Shown here: piece by piece, positions 8,337 through 28,952 of the stretch
Layout: each line of letters begins with the position of its first letter
How positions within the stretch are numbered: the first letter of the stretch is position 1
Assembly: GCA_903838415.1 (NCBI GenBank)
Contig: CAILYI010000009.1
Span: 1 to 37,739, forward strand
Length of the DNA stretch: 37,739 nt
DNA from: an uncultured Anaerolineae bacterium
Lineage (GTDB): Bacteria > Chloroflexota > Anaerolineae > Anaerolineales > Villigracilaceae
Reading direction: 5' to 3'
The notes under the pieces: model-generated
Told to the model about the DNA's origin: nothing
Seen by the model: only the letters and a program-made list of their open reading frames with translations
Database searches by the model: none
Made by a program: the position numbers and the translations under genes

Positions 8337-8355
8337 CCGGCAGATTGGACTTTTT

Positions 8356-8934
8356 GTGTTTGACCATTTTGACATTCTCGCCCCTATTTATGATCGCGCT
8401 ATCCCATTTTCGCGCCTTGAACTCATGTTGAAAATGGTGGATTTGCCGGTGGATGGAATTTTGCTCGATGCTGGCGGCGGCACCGGACGAGTGGCCTCAG
8501 CCCTGCGCCCTCACGTCCGCGCCGCGTTGGTGGCGGATTTCTCGCCCGGCATGCTGGCGCAAGCGCAGCTGAAAGGGTTGCCGGGAGTGCTCACGCCCGC
8601 CGAACGCCTGCCCTTTGCCGATGGGACCTTTGATCGGATCATCATGGTCGATGCTTTGCACCATGTCCATAATCAGGCCGAGACGATCGCCGAATTATGG
8701 CGGGTGCTGCGCGGCCCCGATCCTGTTTCGGGGAAATCCGGCGGGCGGCTGGTGATCGAGGAACCGGATGTGCGCACTTTCACGGTCAAGCTGGTGGCCA
8801 TCGGCGAAAAACTGGCGCTGATGCGCAGTCACTTCCTCTCGCCGCCGAAAATCGCGGCCTTGTTTCCGCCCGAAGCGCAGGTCAAAATTGAAACAGAAGG
8901 GTACAACGCCTGGGTGATTGTGGAAAGAATTTAG
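8356..8934 (+). CDS. Class I SAM-dependent methyltransferase
   Basis: This 192-residue protein has the SAM-binding motif I LLDAGGGTGRVASAL (residues about 36-50) and the motif near DRIIMVDALHHV. It resembles UbiE/COQ5-type methyltransferases, but nothing beside it names the substrate. The GTG at 8356 is the first start giving the full fold (FDHFDILAPIYDR is a typical N-terminus). No Shine-Dalgarno is evident. Confidence 0.78.
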   Translation: MFDHFDILAPIYDRAIPFSRLELMLKMVDLPVDGILLDAGGGTGRVASALRPHVRAALVADFSPGMLAQAQLKGLPGVLTPAERLPFADGTFDRIIMVDALHHVHNQAETIAELWRVLRGPDPVSGKSGGRLVIEEPDVRTFTVKLVAIGEKLALMRSHFLSPPKIAALFPPEAQVKIETEGYNAWVIVERI

Positions 8935-13089: not shown

Positions 13090-13434
13090 TTATAGCGTGA
13101 TGACTTTATCCGCCTGGGCTTGGGCTGTGAGAATATCGCCCATACCGCCGACGATGCCCACTTTGGTGGCGCCGGTCAGCCCGAAATAATTCAGGCAGGT
13201 TGAGCAAACCACCAGCCGTGTGCCTTTTTGCTCAAGCGCGGTCAGCTGCGCCAGCACCGGCGAACCTTCCACCACTAACTTGACGCCGTTGGTGTAGAAA
13301 CAGAGCGCGGCGGGCAGGTCGCCGCCAGCCAGTAAAAGCTCAAGATATTTTCCGATCAATGTGTGTTGTAGCGGAATATCCGCCTGGCCCATTCCGTCAT
13401 TCGTGATCACAATCACCGAGTTCTGCATTGTCAT
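13090..13434 (-). CDS. YedF-like DsrE-fold sulfurtransferase protein (TusA domain absent)
   Basis: This 114-residue product matches the C-terminal domain of the selenium/sulfur metabolism protein YedF: FYTNGVKLVVEGSPVLAQL, then EQKGTRLVVCSTCLNYFGL with the two conserved Cys, ending ADKVITL. Full-length YedF usually carries an N-terminal TusA domain, which is missing. Start at ATG 13434, with GGAG nine bases upstream; ATG 13428 would remove two residues. It overlaps the end of the DUF2007 gene by 38 bases in another frame. A persulfide-carrying role is likely for the fold; the partner is unknown. Confidence 0.78.
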   Translation of the reverse strand: MTMQNSVIVITNDGMGQADIPLQHTLIGKYLELLLAGGDLPAALCFYTNGVKLVVEGSPVLAQLTALEQKGTRLVVCSTCLNYFGLTGATKVGIVGGMGDILTAQAQADKVITL

Positions 13435-13672
13435 TGCGAAGTTCTCCGTTGTTGTAAGCTTCCAACCAGGCCTGGGCATTTTCAAACTGAGCATCTGGTA
13501 CGCAAATTTCCACTCTTGAGAGCGGCATGGAGGGCAGCACATACAACTGTCCCACAGCTTCTTGAATCAGCACCACCGAAAAGCCGTCAATTTCGAGAGC
13601 TTCTTTTAATATTTCCGCTTCGAAACGGCCATTTGCTTCCATCAGAGTACTCCAGCCATCATGGTGGGACAT
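13397..13672 (-). CDS. DUF2007 family protein
   Basis: This 91-residue protein has the small ferredoxin-like DUF2007 pattern: EAEILKEALEIDGFSVVLIQEAVGQLY, then VEICVPDAQFENAQAWLEAY. The family is called putative signal-transducing protein, with no firm function. GGAG lies seven bases before the ATG at 13672. It begins two bases after the YwiC-like gene ends and overlaps the following YedF-like gene, so the three are translationally linked. Confidence 0.75.
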   Translation of the reverse strand: MSHHDGWSTLMEANGRFEAEILKEALEIDGFSVVLIQEAVGQLYVLPSMPLSRVEICVPDAQFENAQAWLEAYNNGELRNDNAELGDCDHE

Positions 13673-13674
13673 GT

Positions 13675-14496
13675 TTATCTCCAGGTGAGTATGAATAAAA
13701 TAGTGAATACGGTGCTGACGATCAGCTGCCGCATCCCAACGGCGACTGGCTTCGCACCCGCAGCCGGTTTCACCGTGCCCCAGAGCGTTTCTGCCGCCTG
13801 GACGAGGTACGGGATGCCGATCAGCCCCGGGATCACGTTAAAAGCGCCGAGGGCGAGGGCTAAAGTCAGATTGAAAACGGTATAGGCGATGGCCCGGCGT
13901 CCGGCCTGAAAACGCGCACCCAGCTCCGGGATGGATTTCCATTCCCGTTGTTCCAGCCGCAAATAGGCGTAAACAATGCTGGCTGCCGACTGAAACCAGG
14001 TCAGTACCCACAAGACCCAGCCGAGCGGAAGGTAGTGACCCTGGCAGACCCAGTAGGCGGCGGGAGCGGCCAGCGCCAGCACGCCAGTGGCCAGGATTTC
14101 CACCCCGGCCTGGCGGCGTTCCTCGCGGCGGCTGACCAACCAAAGATGCCAGCCAAAGACCGGCGCGGCCGGGATGGCCAGGAGAAGCACGTAGGTTTCG
14201 CCCAAAATGACTAATTCTGCCACGGAGAGCAGGATCAGGGCGCCGTAAACGATCATCCAGAAGCGCGCGGCGGGCAGGTCGATGCGCGGCCGGCGGCCGG
14301 AATAGGCCTTGATGGCAATGGTTACCGGCTGACGGATGAGAAAGGCGGCGATGGCGGCGACCAGCAACGCGAGTGTGGCGGCGCTGAAGGTTTTCCCGGC
14401 AAACAGGCCGATGCTGAGCGGGCTGAAAAGAAATACCCACGAACCGTGGTCTTGTGGCAGGGCAATCTGGCGTCGAAATACGGATAAAGTTTTCAT
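13675..14496 (-). CDS. YwiC-like integral membrane protein
   Basis: This 273-residue protein has about eight transmembrane helices. The N-terminal LPQDHGSWVFLFSPL and the basic IRQPVTIAIKAYSGRR loop are diagnostic of the YwiC-like family (found beside anaerobic respiration genes in Bacillus), whose function is unknown. A TATAAT (14515-14520 on the minus strand) lies about 20 bases before the start, so this is probably the first gene of a four-gene operon running to 12351. Confidence 0.8.
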   Translation of the reverse strand: MKTLSVFRRQIALPQDHGSWVFLFSPLSIGLFAGKTFSAATLALLVAAIAAFLIRQPVTIAIKAYSGRRPRIDLPAARFWMIVYGALILLSVAELVILGETYVLLLAIPAAPVFGWHLWLVSRREERRQAGVEILATGVLALAAPAAYWVCQGHYLPLGWVLWVLTWFQSAASIVYAYLRLEQREWKSIPELGARFQAGRRAIAYTVFNLTLALALGAFNVIPGLIGIPYLVQAAETLWGTVKPAAGAKPVAVGMRQLIVSTVFTILFILTWR

Positions 14497-14640: not shown

Positions 14641-15330
14641 TTATTTGCTGGTCTGCGCTGACGGTTGGTGGATTTCTGGCAGATTTGCGCGGAAACTTAG
14701 TGCGAGGCCGCCCACTATTAGCAGCAGGCCGAGCGGAGTGAGGGTGGCATTGAACGCGTCAGCCCAGTTGATGCCGAGTGCCCAGGTATGCGAAGGCCCG
14801 GCCAGGGATGGAATGGCCAGACAAATAATGCCAAAGACGATCGCCGCCGCGCCACCGGCCGTTCTAGCGCTGGTTTTTCCCTGGGTGAAATCGACGCCCG
14901 ACCAGATGCCGGGGATGCGGAAGATCAGAAAAACGATCAGCGTGACGACGGCGGTGTAAGTGACCATGTCGACCGGCATGGAGGCGCCGCGCAGGGCGCG
15001 CGAGACGAAAATGTGAATCACGCCGACCACCACCCCGGCCACGAGCGAGATGAGCGTGTCGCGGTAGGAAGTGGGCGCGGCTTTGATTAGCAAGACGACG
15101 GCGCGGATCATCAGCACGCCGATGGCGATGGTGACGAGCATGAAAATCGTATACAGCCAGCCCCAGCCGAGCAGCTTGGCCATCGATTCGGATTCGGCGG
15201 CGTATTTTTCGGTGAACAGCGCCGCGCAAACGGTGCCGATGCCGCCCATCAAGGTGAAGGCGGCGGTGAGTGACATCAGGACGATGCCGGTGACGCGTAG
15301 AAATTTGGCAAATCCACTGTTGTGTTGCAT
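14641..15330 (-). CDS. Integral membrane protein of unknown function (6 TM)
   Basis: This 229-residue protein has about six predicted helices and no recognised domain. The ATG at 15330 is chosen over the earlier in-frame start because GGAGG lies seven bases upstream. The second and third helices contain RAVVLLIK and VIHIFVSRALRG. It is the last gene of the operon with the oxidase-like protein, the SUMF lipoprotein and heme O synthase, which suggests an accessory or assembly role. That is inference only. Confidence 0.7.
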   Translation of the reverse strand: MQHNSGFAKFLRVTGIVLMSLTAAFTLMGGIGTVCAALFTEKYAAESESMAKLLGWGWLYTIFMLVTIAIGVLMIRAVVLLIKAAPTSYRDTLISLVAGVVVGVIHIFVSRALRGASMPVDMVTYTAVVTLIVFLIFRIPGIWSGVDFTQGKTSARTAGGAAAIVFGIICLAIPSLAGPSHTWALGINWADAFNATLTPLGLLLIVGGLALSFRANLPEIHQPSAQTSK

Positions 15331-15385: not shown

Positions 15386-15994
15386 CTATCGTCCGAGAGT
15401 GAAGCCTGCCACAAAAGCCGTGGTCATGAGCAGCAACAGGGCGGGCAGGATGCGGAAAATGGTTTCTTTGGGCAAGATTGGTTTCCCGGCTTTCAGGAAG
15501 GAGAGCAGCAATCCGCCCAGGCCAATCAGCGCGCCGCCCAGACCGACCAGCGCAAAGCCGGGTCGGGTTACGCCCTGTGCGGCGAGAATGGTCGGGAGCA
15601 GGAAAATCGTCAGCCCGGCGATGCCGTGAATGGATGCCAGGATAATCGTGGGGACTTTCCCCGGCATTGGGAAGGAACGCGTCAACAGAATGGCGAGGAA
15701 GCCCAGGATGGCAAATTCCAGCGCCAGGCTGCGCCACGCTTCCAGGTGTTCCCAGACCAAGCCCAGGGCCAGCGAAAGCGGGATAATCGTCGAGACGATG
15801 ACTACGATCGGGCTTTCGAGCACTTCAAAGCCCAGGATGATCATCAAGAGTCCAGCCACCAGCAGCACCCCAAAGCCAATGGTGTAGGCGGTGATCGGGA
15901 CGGTTCCCAGTCCGTCGATGCCGACGGCCACCTGCCAGGCGGCTAAAAGCCCGGTGATGAGCAGCAGGATTCGGTCGAGTGGAGTCATTTTCAT
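15386..15994 (-). CDS. Integral membrane protein of unknown function (7 TM)
   Basis: This 202-residue, very hydrophobic protein has about seven helices separated by short loops and no Cys. I recognise no family. It lies 16 bases downstream of the heme O synthase gene and 55 bases upstream of another unknown membrane protein, within the same minus-strand operon. It has no strong Shine-Dalgarno (GGACG only), so the start at 15994 rather than the ATG two codons later is uncertain. Confidence 0.65.
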   Translation of the reverse strand: MKMTPLDRILLLITGLLAAWQVAVGIDGLGTVPITAYTIGFGVLLVAGLLMIILGFEVLESPIVVIVSTIIPLSLALGLVWEHLEAWRSLALEFAILGFLAILLTRSFPMPGKVPTIILASIHGIAGLTIFLLPTILAAQGVTRPGFALVGLGGALIGLGGLLLSFLKAGKPILPKETIFRILPALLLLMTTAFVAGFTLGR

Positions 15995-16010: not shown

Positions 16011-16880
16011 TTAAATTGAAAGCAGAATCATCGAAGCCAGCATATACAGCGAGGCATACTTGAACAGGCTAAAGTTGATCCGTTCCGATGGGCGGAAAAC
16101 GGTGGCGAAGGAGAGCAGCAGCAGTCCGCTGGAGAGCACCACCATCAGGCGCAGGATGCCCGCCTGGACGCCGATCATCACGCCAGCGGTGCCGATGCTG
16201 GCGGCGGCGATGATTGACGAGAGCGCAATCACGGCGCGGGTGGCTTCGAGCCCATAGGTGGAGGGGAAGGTTGGGACGCCCGCCGCCTGGTAGTCGTCGA
16301 AAAACTTGATGCTGAAGGTCAGCGTGTGGGTGGGAATCCAGAACAGCACTGCGGCGGCCAGCAGCAGCCCGATCAGCTCGATTTGGCCGACCGCCAGTAC
16401 GCGCCCGGCCAGGATTGGCATGGCGCCCGAAATGCCGCCCCACAAAATGCCCCAGCAGGTGCGACGCTTCAGCCACATGCTGTAGATGACCACATCAAAG
16501 AACAGCCCGGCGAAAACCACCAATCCATACAGCGGATGAATGGCCAGCGCCCAGCCCACGCCCAACAGCGACATGATCAGCCCCAGCCGCAAGGTTTCCT
16601 GCGCGCTGACTGCGCCCGAAGACGTGGGGCGCTGCTGGGTGCGGCGCATTTTCGCGTCGATGTCGCGATCCCACCACATATTCAAAACGGTCGATCCGCT
16701 GATGGACAGGAACAGGCTGCCAGCCATGGCCAGCATCACCAGCAGGCGCGGCGTGGTGTGGGCGCTCATGTACCCGGCAATCCCGGTGGAAAGCAGCAGC
16801 CCGGTTTGCGTGGCTTTGATCAGCGGAGAGTAGGATTTAATTTTCGATTTTAGATTTTGGATTGTAGATTGGATAAACAT
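16011..16880 (-). CDS. ctaB: Heme O synthase (protoheme IX farnesyltransferase), UbiA family
   Basis: This enzyme adds a farnesyl chain to heme b, making heme O for heme-copper oxidases. The 289-residue membrane protein has the first Asp-rich motif N-x-WWDRDIDAKMRRTQQRP (residues about 66-85) and the second region YSMWLKRRTCWGILWGGISG, plus FFDDYQAAGVPTFP. These are diagnostic of CtaB/CyoE. The first 17 residues (STIQNLKSKIKS) are encoded by a low-complexity repeat and are not conserved family sequence. GGAG precedes the ATG at 16880. Its place next to an oxidase-like gene implies that protein carries an o- or a-type heme. Confidence 0.93.
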   Translation of the reverse strand: MFIQSTIQNLKSKIKSYSPLIKATQTGLLLSTGIAGYMSAHTTPRLLVMLAMAGSLFLSISGSTVLNMWWDRDIDAKMRRTQQRPTSSGAVSAQETLRLGLIMSLLGVGWALAIHPLYGLVVFAGLFFDVVIYSMWLKRRTCWGILWGGISGAMPILAGRVLAVGQIELIGLLLAAAVLFWIPTHTLTFSIKFFDDYQAAGVPTFPSTYGLEATRAVIALSSIIAAASIGTAGVMIGVQAGILRLMVVLSSGLLLLSFATVFRPSERINFSLFKYASLYMLASMILLSI

Positions 16881-16942
16881 GCGTTACTCCAGCAGAATGG
16901 GCGGATGGTCAATCCTAAATCGTCAATCGTAAATCGTCAATC
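16843..16942. repeat. Degenerate AATC-type short repeats
   Basis: Two arrays of short A/T-rich units surround the ctaB start: on the plus strand GATTTTAGATTTTGGATTG within codons 2-17 of ctaB, and AATCGTCAATCGTAAATCGT upstream (16911-16942). Similar small dispersed repeats occur in cyanobacteria and Chloroflexota. Another fragment (TCTATCGTCCATCG) lies near 15998. They supply the first residues of ctaB and the sequence overlapping the end of the SUMF gene. Confidence 0.6.
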
Positions 16943-17846
16943 ACCGCGCACACCGAAACCCGACGCCCGGGCTGAAATAGGTCGGTGTGGCGTTGTTGCG
17001 CACCCAGGCGCGCAAATCCATGTCATACGTATCCTTCGAGCCGCCGCGCAGGAAGCGATAGTGCATCCCTTCATACACGTTGCCCGTCCACTGCCAGACG
17101 TTCCCGGCCATGTCGTACAGGCCGTAGGGGCTGGCGTTGTTCAGCGTGACATAATCACCATAGGTTTGGCCGTTGTAGAATCCCACCGGCGAAGTCCGCG
17201 AGCCAAAACTGGACATATCCTCAAACGGGTCGCGGCTGGAATAGAAATTGGCAACATTCACGGGGATTTCCTCGCCCCACGGGAAGGCCCTGCCATCCGT
17301 GCCGCGCGCCGCTTTTTCCCATTCCAACTCGCTCGGCAGGCGTCCGCTCTGCGCCAGGCAGTAAGCCCGCGCCCCAAACCAGGTTACGTTGGTCATCGGG
17401 TGGTTTTCGTAACCGGGCTTCGGAGTGAAACCGGAACCGTCAAAGCTGAGGCGCGAGGCCGGGTCTTCGAGTGGAATCAAAATCCAGTCACCGGCTTCTA
17501 TTTTTTCTTCATGTTTGACAGCGCGGAACTCGTCACCGGGATAAAAGCCGACGACGGCCCTTTTCCCGTTAAATTCGCCGACTTTGACCTCACCCGAAGC
17601 CAGCGACGCCGATAAATAAGCCGTGTACTGGCTGACAGTGACATCCGTCACCATCAGCTCGTAGTCGTAGTCAATCGTCGCTGATTCCGCTTCCTGCCCG
17701 GATAGGAACTCTCCCGCCGGGACTTTGGCCCAGGCTGATGAGTCGATGTCGGTTTCGAAGGCCGGAATCGGAGCGTTCAAATCAACAGTGGCGCAACCGG
17801 CCAGGAAAACGGTCAGCAGGATGACGGGAATGATGAGCTTTTTCAT
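16941..17846 (-). CDS. SUMF/FGE-fold lipoprotein, probably non-catalytic
   Basis: The 301 residues begin with a lipoprotein signal (lipobox LAGC, Cys 18). They contain a formylglycine-generating-enzyme-like domain: VPAGEFLSG, NHPMTNVTWFGARAYC, LPSELEWEKAARG, YDMAGNVWQWTGN, RFLRGGS and GVGFRCAR at the end. The Cys of catalytic FGE enzymes in the segment after RGGS is replaced (DMDLRAW), so sulfatase activation is unlikely. It is an exported, membrane-anchored C-type-lectin-like domain. AGGAGGTG precedes the start. The start overlaps the stop of the oxidase-like gene (TAATG), so it probably works with that complex. Confidence 0.82.
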   Translation of the reverse strand: MKKLIIPVILLTVFLAGCATVDLNAPIPAFETDIDSSAWAKVPAGEFLSGQEAESATIDYDYELMVTDVTVSQYTAYLSASLASGEVKVGEFNGKRAVVGFYPGDEFRAVKHEEKIEAGDWILIPLEDPASRLSFDGSGFTPKPGYENHPMTNVTWFGARAYCLAQSGRLPSELEWEKAARGTDGRAFPWGEEIPVNVANFYSSRDPFEDMSSFGSRTSPVGFYNGQTYGDYVTLNNASPYGLYDMAGNVWQWTGNVYEGMHYRFLRGGSKDTYDMDLRAWVRNNATPTYFSPGVGFRCAR

Positions 17847-19315
17847 TACTTCACCTCCTGCGAGAGTTCGTGGTCAACTTCTTCCACCCAGCGGCCTTTA
17901 TTCTTGAATAAATCCAGCAAACGCCAGATCAGGGTAATGGCCAACAGCACCAGCAGCATTGCCAGCCCGAAATCCATCAACAGCATGACGGTGTTGACCA
18001 GCGGCTGTTGCGCGGCTTCGCTGACGGAGAGCCGCTTCATCTCGAAGATGGTTACGGCGGCGAAGGCGATGTCGGACAAAATGATGATGCTCCAGCCATA
18101 AAGTTTGCGGATTTTGCCCTTCAGCCCGATCATATCGCCGTAGTAGAGCAGGATGATGGTGGCGACGATGGCTGAAAGCACATGCCAGTGACCGGTCAGT
18201 TCGATGCGTTCCTCGCGGGCAGGCCAGACGCGGAAGATTTCATCCAGTTTGATGGCCATAAAGATGCCGATGCCGCTGGTGGTGAAGTTCATGAACAGCA
18301 TTTGCCAGGTCGGGCCAAACCGCAGCGGGTCGTCGGTCAGGGCGGCGAGTTTTTGGAAGAGGTTCGGTTTCTTGAGCTGCGCCGTGCCCTGCCGGATGAG
18401 TTTGTCCCAGCTCCAGATCAGCAGCAGCAGCGCGGCTACCATGGAGGGCGTCGCGCCGACATAGATGACCATGTGCGCAATCGGCTCCAGTGGCGTAACC
18501 ACGCCCCAGACGCCCAGGCTGAGCACAATGGCGCCCAAAATCATCAGCGGCATGGCGATTTTGTGCATCAAGCCTTTGAAATCGAGCCAGCGGCCAATGA
18601 TGAGCGTGATCATGATGCAAATCAGCGCCAGCATGATGTGCAGGTGGCCGATGACGGCGAATTCCATCAACGATTTTTCGGGCATGCGGATGATGTTTTC
18701 GGCCAGGAAGGTCTCGAAGCCGTTGCCAAAGTAAGAGCCGGGTACCGCGCCAAAGAGCACTGAGAGCAATGTGGCCAGGGATGTGATGAAAAAGGCGGCG
18801 CGTTCCATGTCAAAGCCCTTGATCGAGGCGTATTCGCGGTTGGGCTGGGAATATTCTTTGTTCCAGGGCCACAGGGCAATCGTCAGCAAGGTGCCCGCGA
18901 AGAAGATCAGGCTCAGGCCGGTGATGTAGAGGCCGTGCAGCGCCCAGTTGTGGCCCCAATAGGCGAAGCCCATGCCGAAAATCATGGTCAGGATGTAGCC
19001 GACGGTGATTAGCACGCGCACGGCGCTGACGTAGAAGGGCTTCATCCGTACCAGGCTGGTGATCATGTAGGTTTCAATGGCCACCACGCCCATGGCGATG
19101 GAGTGATACAGGATGATGATGCGGCCTTCGCGCTCGGCCTGGACGATTTGCATGCCCAGATTCTTGATGACCCAGTCGCGCACGCCAAACTCGGCCATGG
19201 GGCCGGAGAGCATGCCGAACAGGGCGGTTTCCAGCCCAATCATCGCAATTGCGACCAGGATGAGGCCTTTGGTCGTTTTGAACAGGTAATTGAATCGACT
19301 TTGGAAAAATTGCAT
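17846..19315 (-). CDS. Divergent heme-copper oxidase subunit I-like protein (12 TM)
   Basis: This 489-residue protein has 12 hydrophobic helices, the number in heme-copper oxidase subunit I. Helix 2 has His71 (LYHSIAM), placed as the low-spin heme ligand. Helix 10 has GHWH (His376, His378), resembling the helix-10 heme ligands GHFH of ba3-type enzymes. Helix 8 HMVIYVGATPSMVAA resembles their helix 8. Helix 6 has GHLH (His224, His226) where GHP...Y is usual. Helix 7 lacks the His-His copper ligands. It may be a new NO- or sulfur-related member rather than a standard oxidase. Start chosen at 19315 (AAAGGAG upstream). Heme O synthase lies in the same operon; no subunit II is present. Confidence 0.65.
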   Translation of the reverse strand: MQFFQSRFNYLFKTTKGLILVAIAMIGLETALFGMLSGPMAEFGVRDWVIKNLGMQIVQAEREGRIIILYHSIAMGVVAIETYMITSLVRMKPFYVSAVRVLITVGYILTMIFGMGFAYWGHNWALHGLYITGLSLIFFAGTLLTIALWPWNKEYSQPNREYASIKGFDMERAAFFITSLATLLSVLFGAVPGSYFGNGFETFLAENIIRMPEKSLMEFAVIGHLHIMLALICIMITLIIGRWLDFKGLMHKIAMPLMILGAIVLSLGVWGVVTPLEPIAHMVIYVGATPSMVAALLLLIWSWDKLIRQGTAQLKKPNLFQKLAALTDDPLRFGPTWQMLFMNFTTSGIGIFMAIKLDEIFRVWPAREERIELTGHWHVLSAIVATIILLYYGDMIGLKGKIRKLYGWSIIILSDIAFAAVTIFEMKRLSVSEAAQQPLVNTVMLLMDFGLAMLLVLLAITLIWRLLDLFKNKGRWVEEVDHELSQEVK

Positions 19316-19396: not shown

Positions 19397-19410
19397 TTGA
19401 CTTTTGTCAA
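19397..19410 (-). promoter_or_regulatory. FNR/NNR-type operator, class II position
   Basis: TTGACTTTTGTCAA is a perfect TTGAC-N4-GTCAA palindrome, the FixK/NNR/FNR box form. On the minus strand a TATTTT hexamer begins 22 bases after it. This places the box centre at -41.5 relative to the expected start of the oxidase-like operon, the classic class II activator geometry. An FNR-type regulator gene is just upstream. Confidence 0.7.
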
Positions 19411-19468: not shown

Positions 19469-20170
19469 TTACGGTTTTAGCGCGGGAGCATCCACCTGAG
19501 CCAGACGGGCCAGTTCATCGGAATGCAGGATCAGGATTTGTGTCCGGCTGCACTCGATCAGGCCTTGCGCCTTGAAGGTATTCAGCGAGCGGCTGATGGC
19601 TTCCGGCACGCTGGCGATGCGGCTGGACATTTCGTTAATCGAATGTTCGCGGCGGTTGATGGCTTGTTTGCCGTGCGCGCTCAACTCCAGCAGCAGTTTG
19701 GCCGCCCGCGACAGGACGGAGCGGAAGGAGAGATCCTCGTATTGTTCGATCATTTGCCTGTTGCGCCGGGCCAGCACGCGCAGCAGGCCCAGCCCGATTT
19801 GCGGGTAATGTTTCAGTAGTGCTTGAAACGATTCGGCGTTGATTTGCCAGAGATGCGCATCCTGCACAGCCACCGCGCTGACCGGGTTGGGGCCGCCATC
19901 CAGCACGGCCACTTCGTTGAACATGATGACCGGGTTGATGATGGCCAGGATGTTGACCTGTCCCTGAGGCCCGGTTTTGGTCAAATGAATCTGACCGCGC
20001 ATCAAGACAAACATCCCGGCGCAGGGTTCGCCTTCCGCGAAGACGGTTTGTTCCGGCCGGAAATGGCGGACCTGTCCCGAGCTGACAATTGCCAGCAGAT
20101 CACTCAATCCCAGGTGTTGAAAGTGTTGTACTTTCCGCAGGCTTTCCGCCAGGCTGTGTAATTCATCCAT
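19469..20170 (-). CDS. Crp/Fnr family transcriptional regulator
   Basis: This 233-residue protein has an N-terminal cyclic-nucleotide-binding fold (about residues 15-130) and a C-terminal winged helix. The recognition helix reads PEAISRSLNTF, with the E-x-x-S-R pattern that in FNR-type proteins contacts TTGAT/TTGAC half-sites. This fits the box upstream of the next operon. It lacks the Cys cluster of FNR, so it is not an Fe-S oxygen sensor. DNR/NNR-type NO sensing by heme, or another ligand, is possible. TATAAT ends six bases before the ATG, suggesting a leaderless or very short-leader mRNA. Confidence 0.88.
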   Translation of the reverse strand: MDELHSLAESLRKVQHFQHLGLSDLLAIVSSGQVRHFRPEQTVFAEGEPCAGMFVLMRGQIHLTKTGPQGQVNILAIINPVIMFNEVAVLDGGPNPVSAVAVQDAHLWQINAESFQALLKHYPQIGLGLLRVLARRNRQMIEQYEDLSFRSVLSRAAKLLLELSAHGKQAINRREHSINEMSSRIASVPEAISRSLNTFKAQGLIECSRTQILILHSDELARLAQVDAPALKP

Positions 20171-20323: not shown

Positions 20324-21601
20324 TTACCCGCAGCCGCCGCCGCTTTTATCGCGCTTCAACTGAAGCTGGATTCTGGCTTCGTACTCGAGTTTCTCATATT
20401 CAATCGGGCTTGGGTCGGCGCACTGATAGCGATCGCCGAGCGCGGACGGGAAGGCGAATTGCAGTTTTTCCGCAATCACCGGCGTCTCGGAGCGGACAAT
20501 TTCAGGGTCGTCCTTGCCAAAGAAGGCGATCCAATTGTTCACGCCACCTTCCAGTAGATACGAATTCGGGATCGATTCGCCCACCAGCAGCTTCCACGCG
20601 TTGGTGGAGACTTCCTCGTCATTGCTGATCACAACGTAGATGGCATTTGGAGCAGAACTGGCCAACAGCTGGGGAATATGGGATTTCAACTGGTCTGCCG
20701 GGATGTTGACGGCGCGGCGGATATGGAACAGGTTGTAATCCGCTTCGGAGCGCACGTCGATCATCGTCAGCTTGAGGGTGTCATCGTTGATGGTCTTGAA
20801 CAATTCCGCCGGGGCGATCTGAACCTGTCGTTTTGCCAGGGCTTCATCCGCGCTCATTTTTACAGCTTGTTCATTGACGGTGCGGTTGAGCTGTACGCGG
20901 GCATACTTGGTTTCAGTTGAAGGCGTGCCGATGAAAAGCACCGCCAGGGCCAGCACAAACAATCCGCCTGCGGCATAGACGCGCTTTTTGGGTTCCTTGG
21001 TCAGGTCTTTTTTGCCAAAGATACGTTCCAACTGTTCGGCGCCCCAAAACATGAAGAGCGCCATCAAAACCACCAGCACCACGATCACGCCAGCCGGAAG
21101 ATGAAAGACATCCATCAGGGTCAGGCGGCCATAGTAACCGGCGTTGTTGTACCATTGGGTGAAATACTGTTCGGTTTCAGCAAACAGGAAGGCGCCGAAA
21201 AAGCCACCACCCACGAAGAACATACCGTCGATTTTGCCGGTCGAGGCTGAGGCCAGCGATGTGGTTGGGCAGAATCCGCCGATGATAAAGCCGACGCCCA
21301 TGATCAGCCCGCCGAGCACCCCGGATGGAACATAGGTCAGGTTGACCCACACCTGGCTGAAATCCAGAATGCCCAGGCCAGCTGCGCCAAAGGTCAAGGT
21401 CATTGCCACGGCAATCGCGGTGAACATGACTTTGAGCACCGTCAGGTCGGTGAAATAGAATTGAGCGGCCAGTTTGCGGCTGTTGCCAAAGCCCGACATT
21501 TCAAGCGTGAAGCCGAAGGCAAAGCCGATCACCGCAAAGAGTACATAGGTCCAGGGGTTCGAGGCGCTGACTGCCAGGAAAGAAGGAAGAGGGAAATTCA
21601 T
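20324..21601 (-). CDS. YeeE/YedE membrane protein fused to a cysteine-less rhodanese domain
   Basis: 425 residues. The N-terminal ~200 residues form a YeeE/YedE (thiosulfate-transporter TsuA-type) unit with GFAFGFTLEMSGFGNSRKL and the Cys motif GGFCPTTSLAS. A further helix (about 210-230) leads to an extracytoplasmic-looking rhodanese domain (about 265-365: MIDVRSEADYNLFHIRRAVNIP). The active-site loop, normally CRxGxRS, reads ISNDEEVST, so the sulfur-carrying Cys is absent. The C-terminal tail ends GGGCG, with another Cys in YQCADP, and might substitute. It is the last gene of the operon with a second YeeE half and sulfur-oxyanion-type cytochromes. AAGGAG precedes the ATG. Confidence 0.85.
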   Translation of the reverse strand: MNFPLPSFLAVSASNPWTYVLFAVIGFAFGFTLEMSGFGNSRKLAAQFYFTDLTVLKVMFTAIAVAMTLTFGAAGLGILDFSQVWVNLTYVPSGVLGGLIMGVGFIIGGFCPTTSLASASTGKIDGMFFVGGGFFGAFLFAETEQYFTQWYNNAGYYGRLTLMDVFHLPAGVIVVLVVLMALFMFWGAEQLERIFGKKDLTKEPKKRVYAAGGLFVLALAVLFIGTPSTETKYARVQLNRTVNEQAVKMSADEALAKRQVQIAPAELFKTINDDTLKLTMIDVRSEADYNLFHIRRAVNIPADQLKSHIPQLLASSAPNAIYVVISNDEEVSTNAWKLLVGESIPNSYLLEGGVNNWIAFFGKDDPEIVRSETPVIAEKLQFAFPSALGDRYQCADPSPIEYEKLEYEARIQLQLKRDKSGGGCG

Positions 21602-21613
21602 TTTATTCTCCTT

Positions 21614-22168
21614 TTACAGCCAAAACTTCCTGACGAAGTAGGCCATGGCGTAGGCGCCGCCAAAAATGGCAAACATGATCAGCCACGATCCGGCTGCCAG
21701 TGTCGCGCCACCGGTCAGCGCCTGGCCGGAGGTGCAGCCGCGCGCCATGCGCGCTCCATACAGGAATAAGACACCGCCCAGGAAAGCCATCGTCCAGCGC
21801 GTCTGATCTGTGATCTTGGGGCCGCGGGTGGTCTCGAGGCGGGTGCGGCCAAAGATCGTTCCGGAGGTAAATCCGCCCAGCAAAGCGCCAAAGAAGACCG
21901 GCACAATCCAGTCATCCAACGGGTTTTTATCGCCGCCCGCCATTTTGAGCAGATAAGGAGTCTTGTCAACATGCGCCGGAGCAATCGCATCTTCCGCGAG
22001 CGCAACCAGGCGGATGGTGGCTCCCGAGGAGCCGAGTCCGTTGCCGGTCAGGAACATCGCCAGGAAGAGTACGATGCCCAGGATCGTGCCGCCAAGATAG
22101 GGATGCACGTAAGGTCTTTCCGGGCGTCCGAACAGGCCTTTCTTTTCAGGGTTTACAGTAGTTGTCAT
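21614..22168 (-). CDS. YeeE/YedE family membrane protein (single unit)
   Basis: This 184-residue, four- to five-helix protein carries the YeeE/YedE signature GARMARGCTSGQALTGGATLAAGSW (Cys in ARGCTSG). The family takes up thiosulfate or related sulfur species in characterised TsuA examples. It is half-size and sits 12 bases before a second YeeE/YedE gene, so the two probably pair to make one transporter. A long N-terminal extracytoplasmic loop (about residues 45-85) is unusual. AGGAG lies seven bases before the ATG at 22168. Confidence 0.85.
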   Translation of the reverse strand: MTTTVNPEKKGLFGRPERPYVHPYLGGTILGIVLFLAMFLTGNGLGSSGATIRLVALAEDAIAPAHVDKTPYLLKMAGGDKNPLDDWIVPVFFGALLGGFTSGTIFGRTRLETTRGPKITDQTRWTMAFLGGVLFLYGARMARGCTSGQALTGGATLAAGSWLIMFAIFGGAYAMAYFVRKFWL

Positions 22169-22222: not shown

Positions 22223-24991
22223 CTATTTTTTGCCCTTGGGGGATTTTACTTTCGGTTCCCCGTGGGTTTTGTTGCCACCATGATGTGATTCAAGTTCTTC
22301 CCAACCTGTCACCATGCCGCGCATGGCTTCGAGCGGCGTGGCGCCGGTCGTGGTCAGGTAGACGTGTGCGATCACAAATGCGCCGAACAACCAGGCTACC
22401 AGGCTATGGAAGGGAGCCAGGATTGGCAGTCCGCCCATCCAACTGGTCAGTTGTGGCCACTTTTGCACGCTCCACATCAAAGCGCCGGTGATGATTTGCA
22501 GCGGCAGCAGCACGTTCAGCAATCCAAAGTAAGTTGCCTGCTGGAGCGGATTCATCTTCTGGTCTTTGCGCTTCTCAAATGGATGCGCTTCGCCCTTGAA
22601 AATGCCGCCGATATAGAACTTGGCCTGCACGATGGCGTCATCAAAGAAACCGACCGGGCGTGGAATGAACTGCTTGATCTCACCGGTGGTCAGGTGCCAG
22701 AACAGCGACAGCGCGGCATTGATGACCAGGATGGCTGCCAAAATATTGTGAACGGTCACGATATGGCGGAAGGAGAAGACCCCGAAGACATCCGGCCGGT
22801 GGATGATCAGGCCGGTGAACAACAGGAATACGATCGAGAAGGTCTGCAGCCAGTGCCAGAAGCGCTCGTAGCTCTCGTAAATATAAACTTTTTCAACCTT
22901 CGCCTTGCTTTTTGCCAGTTTCAGCGACGAAATGTAGCGCAGCGTGCCGTGACCGGCCACACCGAACAGCGTAGCCGCGAAAGCCAGCGCGCCGAACCAG
23001 TCAATCCAGTTGATGCGATCGCTGCCGAAGACGTATACGCCCTCTTTCATGGTCGCCGGTTGATATACCAGCGCGCCATTGTTGGATTTGACGATTTCGC
23101 CGCTGGCGTTGACATTGCTGTCAGCGACAAATTTGGGCGTCACGCCAGCCGGAGAGTAGGCAGCCAGTTGAATCGACTTGTTGACGCGCGAATCGCCGGT
23201 GTGACAGGTTTTGCAGTCACTGATGGCATATTCGCCGCGGGCAACATCGTGGTTGATGCTGTAGGGTTGAACCTGCCCTTCGATGTGCGGATTTTTCAGT
23301 CCGAGCGTTTCCAGTCGGGCGGCGACGGCGGCTTGTTTTTCGATGGTGTCGGTTTTCAGTTCGCCGCTGTCAATTTTTCCATCGCCATTTGCGTCGAAAG
23401 CGCTGACGATTTCAGCAGCGTACGCGCCGTTTTCGAGATAAGCTGCTTGCAAATCAGCTTCGCGCACCGGGCGCGGGCCGTTGTTGCCATCGTAGACCCA
23501 GTAGAAGCTGGTTACGAGGTTGTACGGCGCCAGGAGCGTCTTGCCGTCAATGTTGGTGCGCTGCATCAGCACGGGTTTGTAGCCGGTCACCAGGTCGGTG
23601 GTGGTATTGCTGCCACCCTGAATCCCACGGCAAAGATTGGTGGGTGTACCGTCGGCCTGGACCACGGTCCAGTCATAGGATTCGATCGCCGGGGCATACA
23701 TTTGCGGAATGTGGCAGGATTCGCAGGCCACGACCGCCATGTGCTGTTCGCTGTAAGGCAGCCAATCGGCGTGCGATTTCTGCGAGTCGTGGCAGGATTC
23801 GCAGCGGCGCATGGTGCCCTTGTTCTGCGGTGAGACCGTGAACTGGGCGCTCTGTCCGCGCGCAACGTTGTGATCGGGCATTTTCAGGTATTCGCCGATT
23901 TCCAGTTTGCGCGGGTCATACACCAGATGACTCGGGCTGGTTCCGGCGGCTTCCTGTGAATGGATCGGGTTATTGATGGAAAAGTGGCAGTCAGTGCATT
24001 TCAGGGCGCGCTCGGCGTGAATATCCCACGGGCGCGTCAGAGCAGATTTGCCGCTGACATTGACGCCCGATTCGGAGATTTTCTGCGAGGCGATCACCTG
24101 ACCGGTTGTGGCTGTCTGCGGGTAATTCTGGTCACAGGCGGAAATTGTCAGCGGGTCCTGGCCATTGGGGTGGACTTCGCCGTGACAGGCTGCGCAATTC
24201 TCGTTGGTGGGATCCTGGATCAGGACAAATTCCCGTTTCAGCTGGCCGCTCTCGTCGAAAGCGGCGGGATTCCACTGGTAGCTGTCTCCCGTTTTGTCGA
24301 GCAGACCGGTTCCCAGCAGGGTGGCGGTGTTGGCCAGGCCAAATTTGCCAGCCTCAATTTCGGCGGCGCGGGCGGAAGTGTTGGGCTGCTTGAGATGACA
24401 CAGGAAACAGTTCATTTCCATCGTGCCGGATTGTTTCCAATCCCAGGCGACGGGTTGTCCCGTTTTCGGGTCGAGGATGGCGGCTTCCGGGTTGGTGGCG
24501 TCGCCGCTGAGTTCCGTCAGGGCTGTACCGCTGCGGGATTTCGTCGCCGGGCCGCCGCCAGGAATCCGCTCTCCGTATTTCATCAGCCATTCGGCGGTGC
24601 TCATATCCAGGCGGTCGTCACCAGCCTGAGAAAGGAAGCGGTAGGTGAGCGGATCCCACTTTCCGAAGACGCCTGCGCTGGCGTTCATGCTGTCACTGAC
24701 GGGAGCGTAGCTGCTCAGACCCAGGTCGGCGTGGAAGCTGTGGGATTCGATGAAGGTCGTATCGTGGCACTCGCCGCAGGTTTTCATCGTGGAGACTGGC
24801 TGGCTGCTTTTGAGCACATTTTCGCCATTGGCGTCGAGCATGGCAAAGACCGGGTGCATCGGTGAAGGCTGGGCGACTGGAGCGCTGTTTTGTTTGGCCA
24901 GGACTTGTTGAATGCCAAACGCCAGCACGATGATCGATAGGAGCGCCAGGCCGATAAGCCATTTATTGGTGGACAGGATTTTTGTTTTCAT
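22223..24991 (-). CDS. Heptaheme cytochrome c fused to EF-hand and cytochrome b membrane domain
   Basis: 922 residues. A signal anchor (about 10-32) is followed by an exported multiheme part with seven CxxCH sites starting near residues 72, 195, 266, 332, 397, 423 and 593. An EF-hand-like loop DANGDGKIDSGEL (about 533-545) lies between hemes six and seven. A further helix (about 665-685) leads to a C-terminal b-type membrane domain of the Ni/Fe-hydrogenase / thiosulfate-reductase cytochrome b kind, with His in RFWHWLQ, FRHIVTVHN, LFWHL and FVIAHVY. A single polypeptide could thus oxidise quinol and pass electrons outward to the octaheme protein encoded just upstream. The gap to that gene is 14 bases. 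Confidence 0.85.
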   Translation of the reverse strand: MKTKILSTNKWLIGLALLSIIVLAFGIQQVLAKQNSAPVAQPSPMHPVFAMLDANGENVLKSSQPVSTMKTCGECHDTTFIESHSFHADLGLSSYAPVSDSMNASAGVFGKWDPLTYRFLSQAGDDRLDMSTAEWLMKYGERIPGGGPATKSRSGTALTELSGDATNPEAAILDPKTGQPVAWDWKQSGTMEMNCFLCHLKQPNTSARAAEIEAGKFGLANTATLLGTGLLDKTGDSYQWNPAAFDESGQLKREFVLIQDPTNENCAACHGEVHPNGQDPLTISACDQNYPQTATTGQVIASQKISESGVNVSGKSALTRPWDIHAERALKCTDCHFSINNPIHSQEAAGTSPSHLVYDPRKLEIGEYLKMPDHNVARGQSAQFTVSPQNKGTMRRCESCHDSQKSHADWLPYSEQHMAVVACESCHIPQMYAPAIESYDWTVVQADGTPTNLCRGIQGGSNTTTDLVTGYKPVLMQRTNIDGKTLLAPYNLVTSFYWVYDGNNGPRPVREADLQAAYLENGAYAAEIVSAFDANGDGKIDSGELKTDTIEKQAAVAARLETLGLKNPHIEGQVQPYSINHDVARGEYAISDCKTCHTGDSRVNKSIQLAAYSPAGVTPKFVADSNVNASGEIVKSNNGALVYQPATMKEGVYVFGSDRINWIDWFGALAFAATLFGVAGHGTLRYISSLKLAKSKAKVEKVYIYESYERFWHWLQTFSIVFLLFTGLIIHRPDVFGVFSFRHIVTVHNILAAILVINAALSLFWHLTTGEIKQFIPRPVGFFDDAIVQAKFYIGGIFKGEAHPFEKRKDQKMNPLQQATYFGLLNVLLPLQIITGALMWSVQKWPQLTSWMGGLPILAPFHSLVAWLFGAFVIAHVYLTTTGATPLEAMRGMVTGWEELESHHGGNKTHGEPKVKSPKGKK

Positions 24992-25005
24992 GGGTTTTGG
25001 CCTGT

Positions 25006-26454
25006 TTACTTGTTATCGAAACGCCCGCCCCATTTGATGGGGTCGCCGGAGTAGCCCAGGGCTTTCCAGTCCATGCGCCCGTTGTCAGTGTGACAGTCGT
25101 CGCATTGCAGGGCGTTTTCTTTGGGCTGAACCATGTGGGTGGTGGGCCAATACATATAAGTTTGGGCGAAGCCGTAGCTGCCGCTATATTTCAGTCCCAT
25201 GCGTTCCTGTCCCAGTTGGAAGGCGTTATTCCAATCAAAGGTGGTCCAGTAGCCGCCTGGCCCGGAAGTGATGGGTGCCAGCAGATAATTGTTGCCGGTG
25301 TCGTAGGGCTGGTTGGCCACATGCAGTTTGAAGGGGAAAATCTTGGCGCTTTGATCGCTGATATCGCCAGCTGGTTTGTTGATGTAAGTTGGCTGGGTCG
25401 GGTCGATCTTATCGCCGAGCAGGTAGCGGGCCGAAAGATTGCCGTTGAACCACAGGTAGGTGGGCCGGACGTTCTTTTCGTAAACGAAATTACCCTTAAT
25501 TTTCAGATAGGTGTAGTGGTCGTCGCCGATATCCTGGCCAGAAGTAGACCAATCCCAGGAGACTTTTGTGGGATCTTTGAGCGCCATGGCCGGGATGTGG
25601 CAGGTCTGGCAGGCCAGGGATTTGACATGCTGGTTGAGTCGTTCGTCTTTGTGCAGGTTCTCTGCGTGACATTGCGTGCAGGAAACCTGTTCATTTGGAT
25701 CGACGGTAATGTTATCGACAATCAGTCGGCCTTTGACGACGTGGTCTTTGGTCACATGGCAGTCGGTGCAGATGAAGTTGTTCTTGCCCATGTGCACATC
25801 GAGACTCTCGCCGGGGAATTTCAGGCTTTCGTCGAGATCGCCGTGTTTGACGCCGTTGCCGCCGCCGCCGTCAAAATGGCATTTTCCGCAGGTGGCGCGG
25901 TTGGGGGCTGCCACGCTGCGGGCTGCGGCCAGCAGGTCAACTGTATCAGCCGGGTTGCCATAGCTGCCTTTGGCGTATCCGGAAGCGGCATGACACATCA
26001 GGCAGTCCACGTTTTCGCTTTTGGTGAAATCAAAAGCGGGAGTGGTGGCTGTCTTTTCCTTCCAGTCATAGCCGATATGGCAATTCATGCAACTTTTCTG
26101 GTTGCCTTGCGCGCTGATGCAGAAGTTGTTGATCTGGTTGGCTTTGCCAATCGTCACAGGTTCTGAGCGACCAGGCACGGTGAAGGGTTTTGATTCCCAG
26201 GTCCAGTGAGTGGTCATCATGATGTCTTTGGCCGCATCGGGGTGGCAGCGCAGGCAATCACGCGTCACATCCTGACCGGAGGCAAAGGGGCCTTTGATGA
26301 TGTCCGCATGGCTGGTGTGAATGGGATGTTCAGGGACGCCCGCCCAGGGGTCGGTCGTCTGTGCGGCGGTTTTGGGCCAAAAAATAATCGCCGGTACGAT
26401 GATTACTGCCAGGATTCCGATCAGGCCCAAAATCCAATAGGGTTGTTTCTTCAT
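25006..26454 (-). CDS. Octaheme cytochrome c, tetrathionate reductase (OTR) family
   Basis: 482 residues with an N-terminal anchor (about 7-27) and eight CxxCH sites, starting near residues 67, 122, 151, 189, 229, 259, 282 and 451. The order, and segments such as INNFCIS...CMNCHIGYDW, VDCLMCHAASG, CHFDGGGGNGVKHGDLD and ACQTCHIPAMA...WDWSTSG, match the octaheme tetrathionate reductase family. The Shewanella enzyme reduces tetrathionate, and also nitrite and hydroxylamine, in vitro, so the physiological substrate here is open. Neighbouring YeeE/YedE genes favour sulfur oxyanions. It follows arsR by 24 bases and precedes the cytochrome b fusion. Confidence 0.92.
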   Translation of the reverse strand: MKKQPYWILGLIGILAVIIVPAIIFWPKTAAQTTDPWAGVPEHPIHTSHADIIKGPFASGQDVTRDCLRCHPDAAKDIMMTTHWTWESKPFTVPGRSEPVTIGKANQINNFCISAQGNQKSCMNCHIGYDWKEKTATTPAFDFTKSENVDCLMCHAASGYAKGSYGNPADTVDLLAAARSVAAPNRATCGKCHFDGGGGNGVKHGDLDESLKFPGESLDVHMGKNNFICTDCHVTKDHVVKGRLIVDNITVDPNEQVSCTQCHAENLHKDERLNQHVKSLACQTCHIPAMALKDPTKVSWDWSTSGQDIGDDHYTYLKIKGNFVYEKNVRPTYLWFNGNLSARYLLGDKIDPTQPTYINKPAGDISDQSAKIFPFKLHVANQPYDTGNNYLLAPITSGPGGYWTTFDWNNAFQLGQERMGLKYSGSYGFAQTYMYWPTTHMVQPKENALQCDDCHTDNGRMDWKALGYSGDPIKWGGRFDNK

Positions 26455-26478
26455 TGCATACTCCTCAGGGCTGAGAAA

Positions 26479-26826
26479 TTAATCCGCCTGAACCTGAATT
26501 TCTTCCATCAGGTTGGCGCGATAGGCAATTCGGTCGCGCAGTACGCTGCGCAGCAAGTCAAGCGCCTGGATCAATCTCCGGTCACTGAGTTCATACTGGA
26601 TGCTGACACCCTGGCGCTTGGCGCGTACCAGCCCACGATCTCGCAGGATTTTGAGATGCCGCGAGGTGGTGGGCTGGGAGATGTTTAGTTCGGCGGTTAT
26701 CTCTCCAACGTTGCGCACCTGTTCATCCAGCGCATATAAAATCAGGATGCGGGTGGGGTCTGCAAGCGCAAAGCAAAGGTCAGCTTCAAGTTGGGAGATT
26801 TCCTGGGAAAGAGTTTGTGAAATCAT
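26479..26826 (-). CDS. ArsR family transcriptional repressor
   Basis: This 115-residue winged-helix protein has the ArsR pattern: FALADPTRILILYAL, then NVGEITAELNISQPTTSRHLKILRDRGLVRAKRQG as the DNA-binding helices. It has a single Cys (residue 18), so it lacks the Cys pairs of arsenic sensors and of the persulfide sensors SqrR/BigR. It is the first gene of the cytochrome/YeeE operon and lies next to a strong palindrome, so it probably represses this operon and itself. The signal is unknown. Confidence 0.88.
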   Translation of the reverse strand: MISQTLSQEISQLEADLCFALADPTRILILYALDEQVRNVGEITAELNISQPTTSRHLKILRDRGLVRAKRQGVSIQYELSDRRLIQALDLLRSVLRDRIAYRANLMEEIQVQAD

Positions 26827-26844
26827 AGGGGTTCTCTTCTGTCA

Positions 26845-26866
26845 ATATATGCGAATAAGCATATAT
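26845..26866. promoter_or_regulatory. Probable ArsR operator
   Basis: ATATATGC (26845-26852) and GCATATAT (26859-26866) form a perfect inverted repeat with a six-base spacer, 19 bases upstream of the arsR start. Length and AT-richness suit an ArsR-family homodimer site covering the operon promoter. Confidence 0.65.
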
Positions 26867-26917
26867 ATTGATTGTTTCTTATATTAGCACCATTTTTCAC
26901 AATCCTGTAGTGTGCAC

Positions 26918-26985
26918 TGTCACATGGAGTTATGCGGAATGTCACATATGAAACTCACCAAAGATGACCTGATTTGTGGTACACT
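26918..26985 (+). promoter_or_regulatory. XRE-cupin promoter region with repeated TGTCACAT
   Basis: TGTCACAT occurs twice (26918-26925 and 26940-26947), 22 bases apart start to start, about two helical turns. Downstream, TGGTACACT (26977-26985) is an extended -10 box, 25 bases before the ATG of the XRE-cupin gene. The repeats may be operators for that regulator or for a Crp-like protein. Confidence 0.4.
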
Positions 26986-27010
26986 GAAAAAAAATTTACA
27001 GAGGTTTGGT

Positions 27011-27619
27011 ATGACTGCGCTCACAAGACAAGCTGTATCGATCGATGTTGGGAATCGCCTGCGTCAGCTGCGCGAATCTCGTAAGGTTTCCATGCGTAGC
27101 CTGGCAACGATGAGCGGCCTTTCTGCAAATGCTTTGAGCATGATCGAGCGCGGAAAGACGTCTCCTTCTGTTTCCACGCTTTATCGCATTGCGGATGCGC
27201 TCGCTGTTCCGGTGACGGATTTCTTCGGTCCCGAGGAAGTGCGCAAAAAAGTGGTTTTCCTGAAGGCGGAAGAACGCACCCGCTTGCCTTTTATGCGCGG
27301 ATTGTGGGAAGGCCTGGGCGGGGAGATGTTTACCGGTCGTGCCATGCCTTTCCTGCTTACGCTTGAAAATGGTGCCAGCAGCGGGCCAAACCCCATGCTC
27401 CACAGCGGACACGAGTTCGTATATTGCCTGCGTGGACAGTTGGAGTATCAGGTGGAGGCCCAGGTTTATAACATGGAAAGTGGCGACAGCCTGTTATTTG
27501 CGGCGCAGCTCAGACATCGCTGGCGTAATCCGGGTGGGATGGTGACGAATGTCCTGATTTTCATTTCCGATTATGCCGATGGTGATCAGCCCATGCCCCA
27601 TGTTGAGCGAGCCGAATAA
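27011..27619 (+). CDS. XRE-family regulator with C-terminal cupin domain
   Basis: This 202-residue protein has an N-terminal XRE helix-turn-helix (VGNRLRQLRESRKVSMRSLA, SGLSANALSMIERGKTSPS, residues about 15-65). A C-terminal cupin_2 barrel follows (about 125-195: HSGHEFVYCLRGQLEYQV, then DSLLFAAQLRHRWRN). This layout is typical of small-molecule-responsive regulators of the PuuR/SutR kind. The start at 27011 has GAGG six bases upstream; the extra 33 residues from 26912 would cover the promoter. It is divergent from arsR and convergent with the hexaheme cytochrome, so it may control either. Confidence 0.85.
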   Translation: MTALTRQAVSIDVGNRLRQLRESRKVSMRSLATMSGLSANALSMIERGKTSPSVSTLYRIADALAVPVTDFFGPEEVRKKVVFLKAEERTRLPFMRGLWEGLGGEMFTGRAMPFLLTLENGASSGPNPMLHSGHEFVYCLRGQLEYQVEAQVYNMESGDSLLFAAQLRHRWRNPGGMVTNVLIFISDYADGDQPMPHVERAE

Positions 27620-27666
27620 TTCAGTTATTTCACCTGATTTCGTCTCTTGCGCGCAAGATCAATTAG

Positions 27667-27716
27667 AAAAGGATAAGAAAACGGATGCCGTGCGGCATCC
27701 GTTTTCTTATCCTTTT
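27667..27716. terminator. Bidirectional terminator, 24-bp perfect stem
   Basis: AAAAGGATAAGAAAACGGAT...(27667-27690) is perfectly complementary to 27693-27716 with a two-base gap. Both strands end in T-tracts. It lies between the convergent XRE-cupin and hexaheme cytochrome genes. Confidence 0.9.
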
Positions 27717-27737
27717 CTGCCAGGAATAAAAATAGAA

Positions 27738-27766
27738 AAGCGGGGCTGCACATGGCAGCCCCGCTT
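27738..27766 (-). terminator. Terminator of the hexaheme cytochrome gene
   Basis: AAGCGGGGCTGC (27738-27749) pairs with GCAGCCCCGCTT (27755-27766), followed on the minus strand by TTTTCTATTTTT. It is 26 bases past the cytochrome stop. Confidence 0.88.
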
Positions 27767-27792
27767 GTTTTACTCAATTGCGTGTTGCGATA

Positions 27793-28812: not shown

Positions 28813-28952
28813 TGTTTCATTCTCCTTTTTGGGTTTTGTTGACAAAACTATTGGAAGGTGTTGTCTCTTCGTGTTGGTGAACACAACCTGTAATCCGATA
28901 ATTCTGTCATAAATTGACAAGATTAATCTTACCTTAATTTAGGATTTATGCT

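Follow-up and report, generated by a model that had tools for sequence, protein, structure and literature searches.

The window, the whole stretch of 37,739 nucleotides analysed here, comes from an uncultured Anaerolineae bacterium. On its minus strand lies a run of genes in the order target, lipoprotein with the fold of formylglycine-generating enzymes (FGE), CtaB, 202-residue membrane protein and a further membrane protein, preceded by a palindrome and a regulator gene. The target is a predicted relative of heme-copper oxidases (HCOs). The features, in the direction of transcription, are as follows.

19469-20170, minus strand: Crp/Fnr-family regulator, Pro-Glu in the recognition helix, HcpR/DNR-like
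19397-19410, minus strand: FNR/HcpR-type palindrome TTGACAAAAGTCAA, its 5' end 95 bp before the target ATG
17846-19315, minus strand: target, a predicted HCO-fold protein of 489 residues with 12 transmembrane helices (open reading frame, structure model, profile alignment)
16941-17846, minus strand: FGE-sulfatase-fold lipoprotein, its start overlapping the target's stop
16011-16880, minus strand: CtaB/CyoE heme O synthase (TIGR01473, 213.9 bits against a cut-off of 210.3)
15386-15994, minus strand: membrane protein of 202 residues with seven long helices predicted and a single invariant His, no Pfam match
14641-15330, minus strand: membrane protein, start set at the ATG common to its relatives

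Translation of the target from the ATG at 19315 yields 489 residues and reproduces the residue numbering of the initial annotation. Relatives were found in Anaerolineae/Chloroflexota bins in one genome-collection scan, from which 80 loci were kept. The family is present in 45 of 101 close genomes, the window's own genome counted, and a sample of 400 genomes from the phylum yielded 17 carriers. Bins named Cloacimonadota, WOR-3 and Desulfuromusa contain scattered members, for which transfer and mis-binning are both possible; in the phylum of the Desulfuromusa bin, two of 297 genomes carry the target, one being that bin itself. The large family and its invariant histidines show that the open reading frame does not exist by chance.

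The predicted structure of the target contains 12 long membrane helices. In structure searches with this model, 50 of 50 VIA rows were HCOs or nitric oxide reductases (NORs), and Foldseek ranks 1-38 were all HCOs, with E values never below 0.001; the closest structures were cbb3, ba3 and aa3 oxidases. Judging from the model, the target is near certain to have the fold of HCO subunit I, as had been proposed from its helix count and His positions. Sequence models did not recognise it. The single protein was matched by none of the Pfam, NCBIfam and PDB sequence models, the 62-row family profile gave no HCO match in Pfam or PDB, and COX1 (PF00115) was found for none of the 62 members (0/62) among the 25 families listed at E values up to 1. 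The same model does find two COX1 genes in the genome that carries the target. These results support an HCO-fold branch invisible to the Pfam COX1 model, and to that extent the earlier suggestion of a new branch of the superfamily was borne out. Among the titles and abstract openings listed for literature on divergent HCOs, NORs, Chloroflexi nirS and FGE proteins with heme-copper proteins, none describes the family.

The structure model places H71 in TM2, H224 and H226 in TM6, and H376 and H378 in TM10; two further invariant histidines, missed by the initial annotation, lie at the starts of TM4 (H127) and TM8 (H281). None of the seven (71, 127, 224, 226, 281, 376 and 378) varies among 62 aligned members, whose identity goes down to 35%, and in 119 members they are conserved at 99-100%. 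M228, four residues after H224, is likewise invariant in the 62. From the helix limits and the usual HCO topology, all seven histidines would lie in the membrane half that holds the HCO hemes. The motifs read GHLH at 223-226 and GHWH at 375-378; residues 266-280 read LSLGVWGVVTPLEPI, without a His pair, and HH occurs nowhere in the target protein.

A profile search was one of the two checks named in the initial annotation. Compared with 48 HCOs, the best of four alternative alignments of the target profile spans residues 12-489 (score 26.8, E = 0.024, probability 2%). In this register, whose statistics are weak, the helix-II heme ligand corresponds to H71, the helix-X pair to H376/H378 and the helix-VI metal-B ligand to H224 (GHLH opposite GHP), and the helix-VII His-His of the HCOs falls opposite a gap after G271 of the target. 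A second register, offset by roughly the length of one internal repeat, comes close at 25.8 compared to 26.8, and scores of 14.5-21.6 were obtained when five control membrane families were compared with that HCO profile. With 15 HCOs only TM10-12 aligned (E = 0.0025, probability 12%), so that helix X was matched in both comparisons; global mode gave no usable alignment of target and HCOs. Placement of H71 and GHWH on heme positions, as first claimed, agrees with this register, and the claimed absence of the helix-7 His-His was confirmed. Four residues past the helix-VI His, ba3-like proteins have Tyr, the eNORs read here Gln and the target Met228; cNOR has Glu there. Because it has the HCO fold but lacks one defining set of ligands, the target was not filed as an ordinary HCO or NOR.

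The ordinary HCO fold has pseudo-threefold symmetry. In the target, TM4-6 align with TM8-10 as an apparent internal repeat (E = 1.7e-4, probability 49%), in which H127 has its counterpart in H281 and GHLH in GHWH. The idea that the helix-6 GHLH copies the helix-10 motif is consistent with this repeat; however, its first His aligns with the canonical helix-VI CuB His of GHP, and GHLH is therefore more than a copy. Read from the sequence, the pseudo-symmetry would also allow an additional heme or metal to sit near H127 and H226.

The operon is conserved beyond the window. In tblastn searches of the fetched flanks of 80 loci, the FGE-fold protein was found at 77, CtaB at 71, the 202-residue protein at 53 and the last membrane protein at 48; order and spacing are mostly kept, and some of the missing genes reflect contig ends. 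Two loci (L105 and L110) encode the target and the FGE-fold protein as one fused protein. The FGE-fold lipoprotein carries a lipobox Cys, and its only cysteines are C18, C163 and C299. Formylglycine-generating enzymes have a catalytic Cys pair shortly after a GGS motif; in the window's protein, GGS lies at 268-270 and no such pair follows shortly after it, before the C-terminal C299. A lipobox Cys without a catalytic pair points to a structural or electron-transfer role. No electron-donor subunit (cytochrome c, cupredoxin or other) was seen in the conserved operon.

The 202-213-residue membrane family is conserved with one invariant His. A model of the 202-residue protein (pTM 0.91) has a rhodopsin-like helix arrangement, which is perhaps only a common one. 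A paralogue lies at L178:3554-4195, minus strand; such paralogues were matched in 49 of 81 sequences, some of them not upstream of the target. Genes upstream of the target vary between loci, a paralogue of the 202-residue protein and a 266-residue membrane protein (38 loci) being common there. Downstream of the operon, the window encodes a YwiC-like membrane protein and a YedF/DsrE-like protein (13090-14496, minus strand), neither matched in the flanks of the 80 relatives.

Upstream, the window holds a separate cluster. Positions 22223-28920 (minus strand) encode an octaheme cytochrome of the tetrathionate reductase family (TIGR04315, 552 bits), together with a multiheme/b561 fusion, a further multiheme protein and an ArsR regulator, and YeeE/TsuA-like and rhodanese genes at 20324-22168 adjoin them; sulfur or nitrite reduction is possible for the cluster. 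The initial annotation had offered NO, nitrous-oxide or sulfur chemistry for the target. A role in tetrathionate, thiosulfate or sulfite chemistry would draw on these upstream YeeE/TsuA-like, rhodanese and octaheme cytochrome genes, together with a thiosulfate-reductase-like cytochrome b, yet the window's sulfur and multiheme genes had no match in the fetched flanks of 80 of 80 relatives, and the nearest sulfur genes begin about 1 kb past the target, beyond the regulator. Such a role is highly improbable, and of the chemistries first offered NO best fits the genomic context.

The presence of CtaB bears on the cofactor. COX1 is also found in 31 of the 45 target carriers; the other 14 have no strong COX1 match, one of them (G047) having a weak partial hit. 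In 13 of these 14, exactly one CtaB scores over the family cut-off, and it lies within 2 kb of the target; the target-linked CtaB of G024 contains an in-frame stop, and in the fourteenth genome, G060, the target is at a contig end. Among genomes with neither target nor COX1 match, of which 10 of 14 were used for the comparison, an over-cut-off CtaB was found in two of ten (p = 5e-4 compared to the carriers). In the COX1-poor carriers the target is the only apparent user of heme O, no other having been seen. Heme O is otherwise employed at HCO active sites. This association also weighs on the reading of the target as an HCO-fold relative without catalytic activity, a membrane protein for electron transfer, heme relay or NO sensing in the service of the Nir system. 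The loss of the helix-VII metal-B ligands is in keeping with such a protein, and the paired GHxH motifs of the internal repeat could offer sites for at least two six-coordinate hemes. However, H376 and H224 are retained at catalytic positions, invariant in the 62 members, and a dedicated heme O synthase accompanies the target where the genome has no strong COX1. A non-catalytic role is rather unlikely.

The promoter region suggests how the operon is controlled. Apart from the palindrome TTGACAAAAGTCAA, the window contains no site of this form. Sites of the form TTGA[CT]N4[AG]TCAA were found within 300 bp upstream of the target in 13 of 78 loci, as compared to 0.15 expected from shuffles; the flanks of the target loci contain 21 such sites in 1.05 Mb, and among the 53 loci with 2.5 kb on both sides a site lies upstream in nine and downstream in one. 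TTGACnnnnGTCAA has been reported for candidate HcpR sites in front of the hcp and norB genes of two cyanobacteria (PMC1274295). Ten regulators adjacent to the target were compared at the two presumed specificity positions: Pro-Glu was read in eight and Arg-Glu in one, and each of these nine loci has the site; the regulator of L100 has Pro-Val, and its locus has no site. The window's regulator, which has no N-terminal Cys within the aligned stretch, appears to be of the HcpR kind.

Genomes were grouped by nitrite reductase. Strong NirS matches (PF02239, E < 1e-40) were found in 22 of the 101 genomes, out of 44 with matches at E values up to 0.001; the 22 genomes dropped include a terminal fragment in G035 (a target carrier), and weak propeller-like hits, those of the window's own genome among them. 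The target is present in 18 of the 22 strong-NirS genomes as compared to 27 of the 79 others (p = 8e-5) and, within the family of the window's genome, in 15 of 16 as compared to 22 of 45 (p = 0.002), p values that ignore shared ancestry. An eNOR was found in three of the 22 (G012, G018 and G040), all of which carry the target. Fifteen have the target and no recognised NOR, and four (G048, G065, G072 and G095) have neither target nor eNOR. The remaining COX1-family hits in strong-NirS genomes, among the matches listed, were ba3-like with Tyr or A-type, types being assigned by motif where the sequence was fetched and otherwise by score and length for the A-type, with weak partial hits left unread. 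PF00115 presumably also covers NorB.

No association with NirK was seen: the target is present in 15 of 27 NirK genomes (those over the curated cut-off, of 53 with hits) and in 30 of the 74 others (p = 0.26). Six of eight eNOR genomes carry the target (p = 0.13). Neither strong NirS nor over-cut-off NirK was found in 17 of the 45 carriers, the window's genome included, and 17 divergent carriers divide into six with strong NirS and 11 without. Thermanaerothrix daxensis (L087) is a cultured carrier, and its genome has strong NirS. The nos_propeller model (PF18764) matched in five of 101 genomes, which says little, and NnrS in two of 101, weakly and below cut-off.

In L107, NirS and a gene of the 202-residue family lie directly upstream of the target, and L108 and L111 have the same arrangement by positions and strands; these three targets are 84-90% identical and may represent one lineage. 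In G010, narG, narH, narJ, narI, two MFS (narK-like) genes and nirS share a stretch of about 30 kb with the target operon. G054 likewise has narG, narH, narI and nirS together with the target; in G018, assembled as a single contig, about 10 kb separate nirS from the target. Next to one divergent homologue (L195) are genes for a DUF438-hemerythrin protein and for a flavodiiron protein that is a relative of NorV but scores under the cut-off of the NorV model.

Several other genes were observed in these neighbourhoods. A COX1-family protein of 221 bits at L194:7319-8944 (minus strand) adjoins a divergent target homologue; its His-His is kept, and its helix-VI GHP is replaced, reading LDMVADGNVLIY by eye. 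Two further families, membrane proteins of 370-390 residues, occur beside nirS and near the target (L178:15574-16752, plus strand; L179:6399-7514, minus strand; L181:3169-4338, plus strand). Pfam and NCBIfam searches gave no match for them, and weak partial PF00115 hits fall in the nirS neighbourhoods of such proteins. FmdE-domain or FmdE-like genes lie near nirS or the target in three genomes (L178:8037-9566; L179:7565-8182; L212:4672-5481 and 7340-8545), one of them from the phylum of the Desulfuromusa bin.

The occurrence of the target alongside NirS, nar genes and HcpR-type sites speaks against an unusual low-oxygen terminal oxidase. Its closest structures are oxidases and the 31 carriers with COX1 encounter oxygen, but both the helix-VI Tyr and the helix-VII His pair are missing and the target occurs in carriers without strong COX1; an oxidase is improbable. 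NO dismutation, N2O chemistry or some other reaction of nitrogen oxides would fit this context as NO reduction does, and the altered site might favour another product. Known NO dismutases are, however, qNOR-like proteins. These reactions, which the present data do not tell apart from NO reduction, are quite improbable.

The target is most likely an NO sink of the HCO fold that uses heme O and has a non-canonical metal-B site. Judging from the genes around it, it would clear NO in bacteria that otherwise seem to have no enzyme for this, and on balance it probably works like an NO reductase, a function read from genomic context. It would be the core subunit of a membrane heme complex. Going by computed positions, H71 and H378 may hold a low-spin heme; H376 would hold the second heme, probably heme O from the neighbouring CtaB, and H224 would keep the role of helix-VI metal-B ligand. 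As the helix-VII His pair and the helix-VI Tyr, Gln or Glu are gone, a metal B, if there is one, would need new ligands, for which H226, H281 and M228, all invariant, are candidates, or the second heme would act alone. NO would be removed at the second heme, most likely by reduction to N2O, in respiration or detoxification; the latter, if assumed, would account for carriers without Nir. Electrons may come from quinol or through the FGE-fold lipoprotein, the putative extracytoplasmic subunit, and an NO-responsive Crp/Fnr-type regulator of the HcpR/DNR kind probably turns on the operon. The complete proposal is that an unrecognised HCO-fold branch, with two pseudo-symmetric GHxH sites and a metal B that is either absent or rebuilt from helices VI and VIII (H224, H226, H281), serves as NO reductase in those nirS Chloroflexota that seemingly lack one; it is plausible at somewhat less than an even chance.

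The family is invisible to COX1/NorB models, and surveys built on those models would therefore miss it. A published survey states that most Chloroflexi with C1-C2-NirS seem to have no nor gene (PMC8756737, section 3.3). The target operon is a concrete candidate for the NO reductase missing from nirS Chloroflexota. If so, predictions of N2O makers among Anaerolineae would change, the HCO scaffold could function with a different metal-B site, and the canonical helix-VII ligands would be dispensable for NO reduction.

Compared to subunit I of cbb3, ba3 and aa3 oxidases, the target is about 7-14% identical and unmatched by the COX1 model; it lacks the helix-VII His-His and the helix-VI Tyr and has the extra invariant H127, H226 and H281. 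The FeB ligands of NorB (cNOR/qNOR) are three His and a Glu. They are not conserved in the target, where the fourth residue after the helix-VI His is Met and the helix-VII pair is gone, and no NorC-like gene was found in its conserved operon. NnrS is a multi-TM heme protein tied to NO, and its model (PF05940) did not match the target or the 62 members. With the eNOR of Chloroflexi the target shares the HCO fold, the denitrification setting and the phylum, and eNOR has Gln at the position of the helix-VI Tyr (PMC8756737). The target lacks this Gln and has the invariant Met228; eNOR keeps GHPAQQ and His-His and matches COX1, whereas the target has GHLHIM, no pair and no COX1 match. NirV, an FGE-like protein, occurs beside NirK, and the target's partner lipoprotein has the FGE-sulfatase domain. 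Unlike NirV and other FGE-like partners of nitrite reductases, the FGE-fold protein described here shares an operon with an HCO-fold protein or forms a fusion with it.
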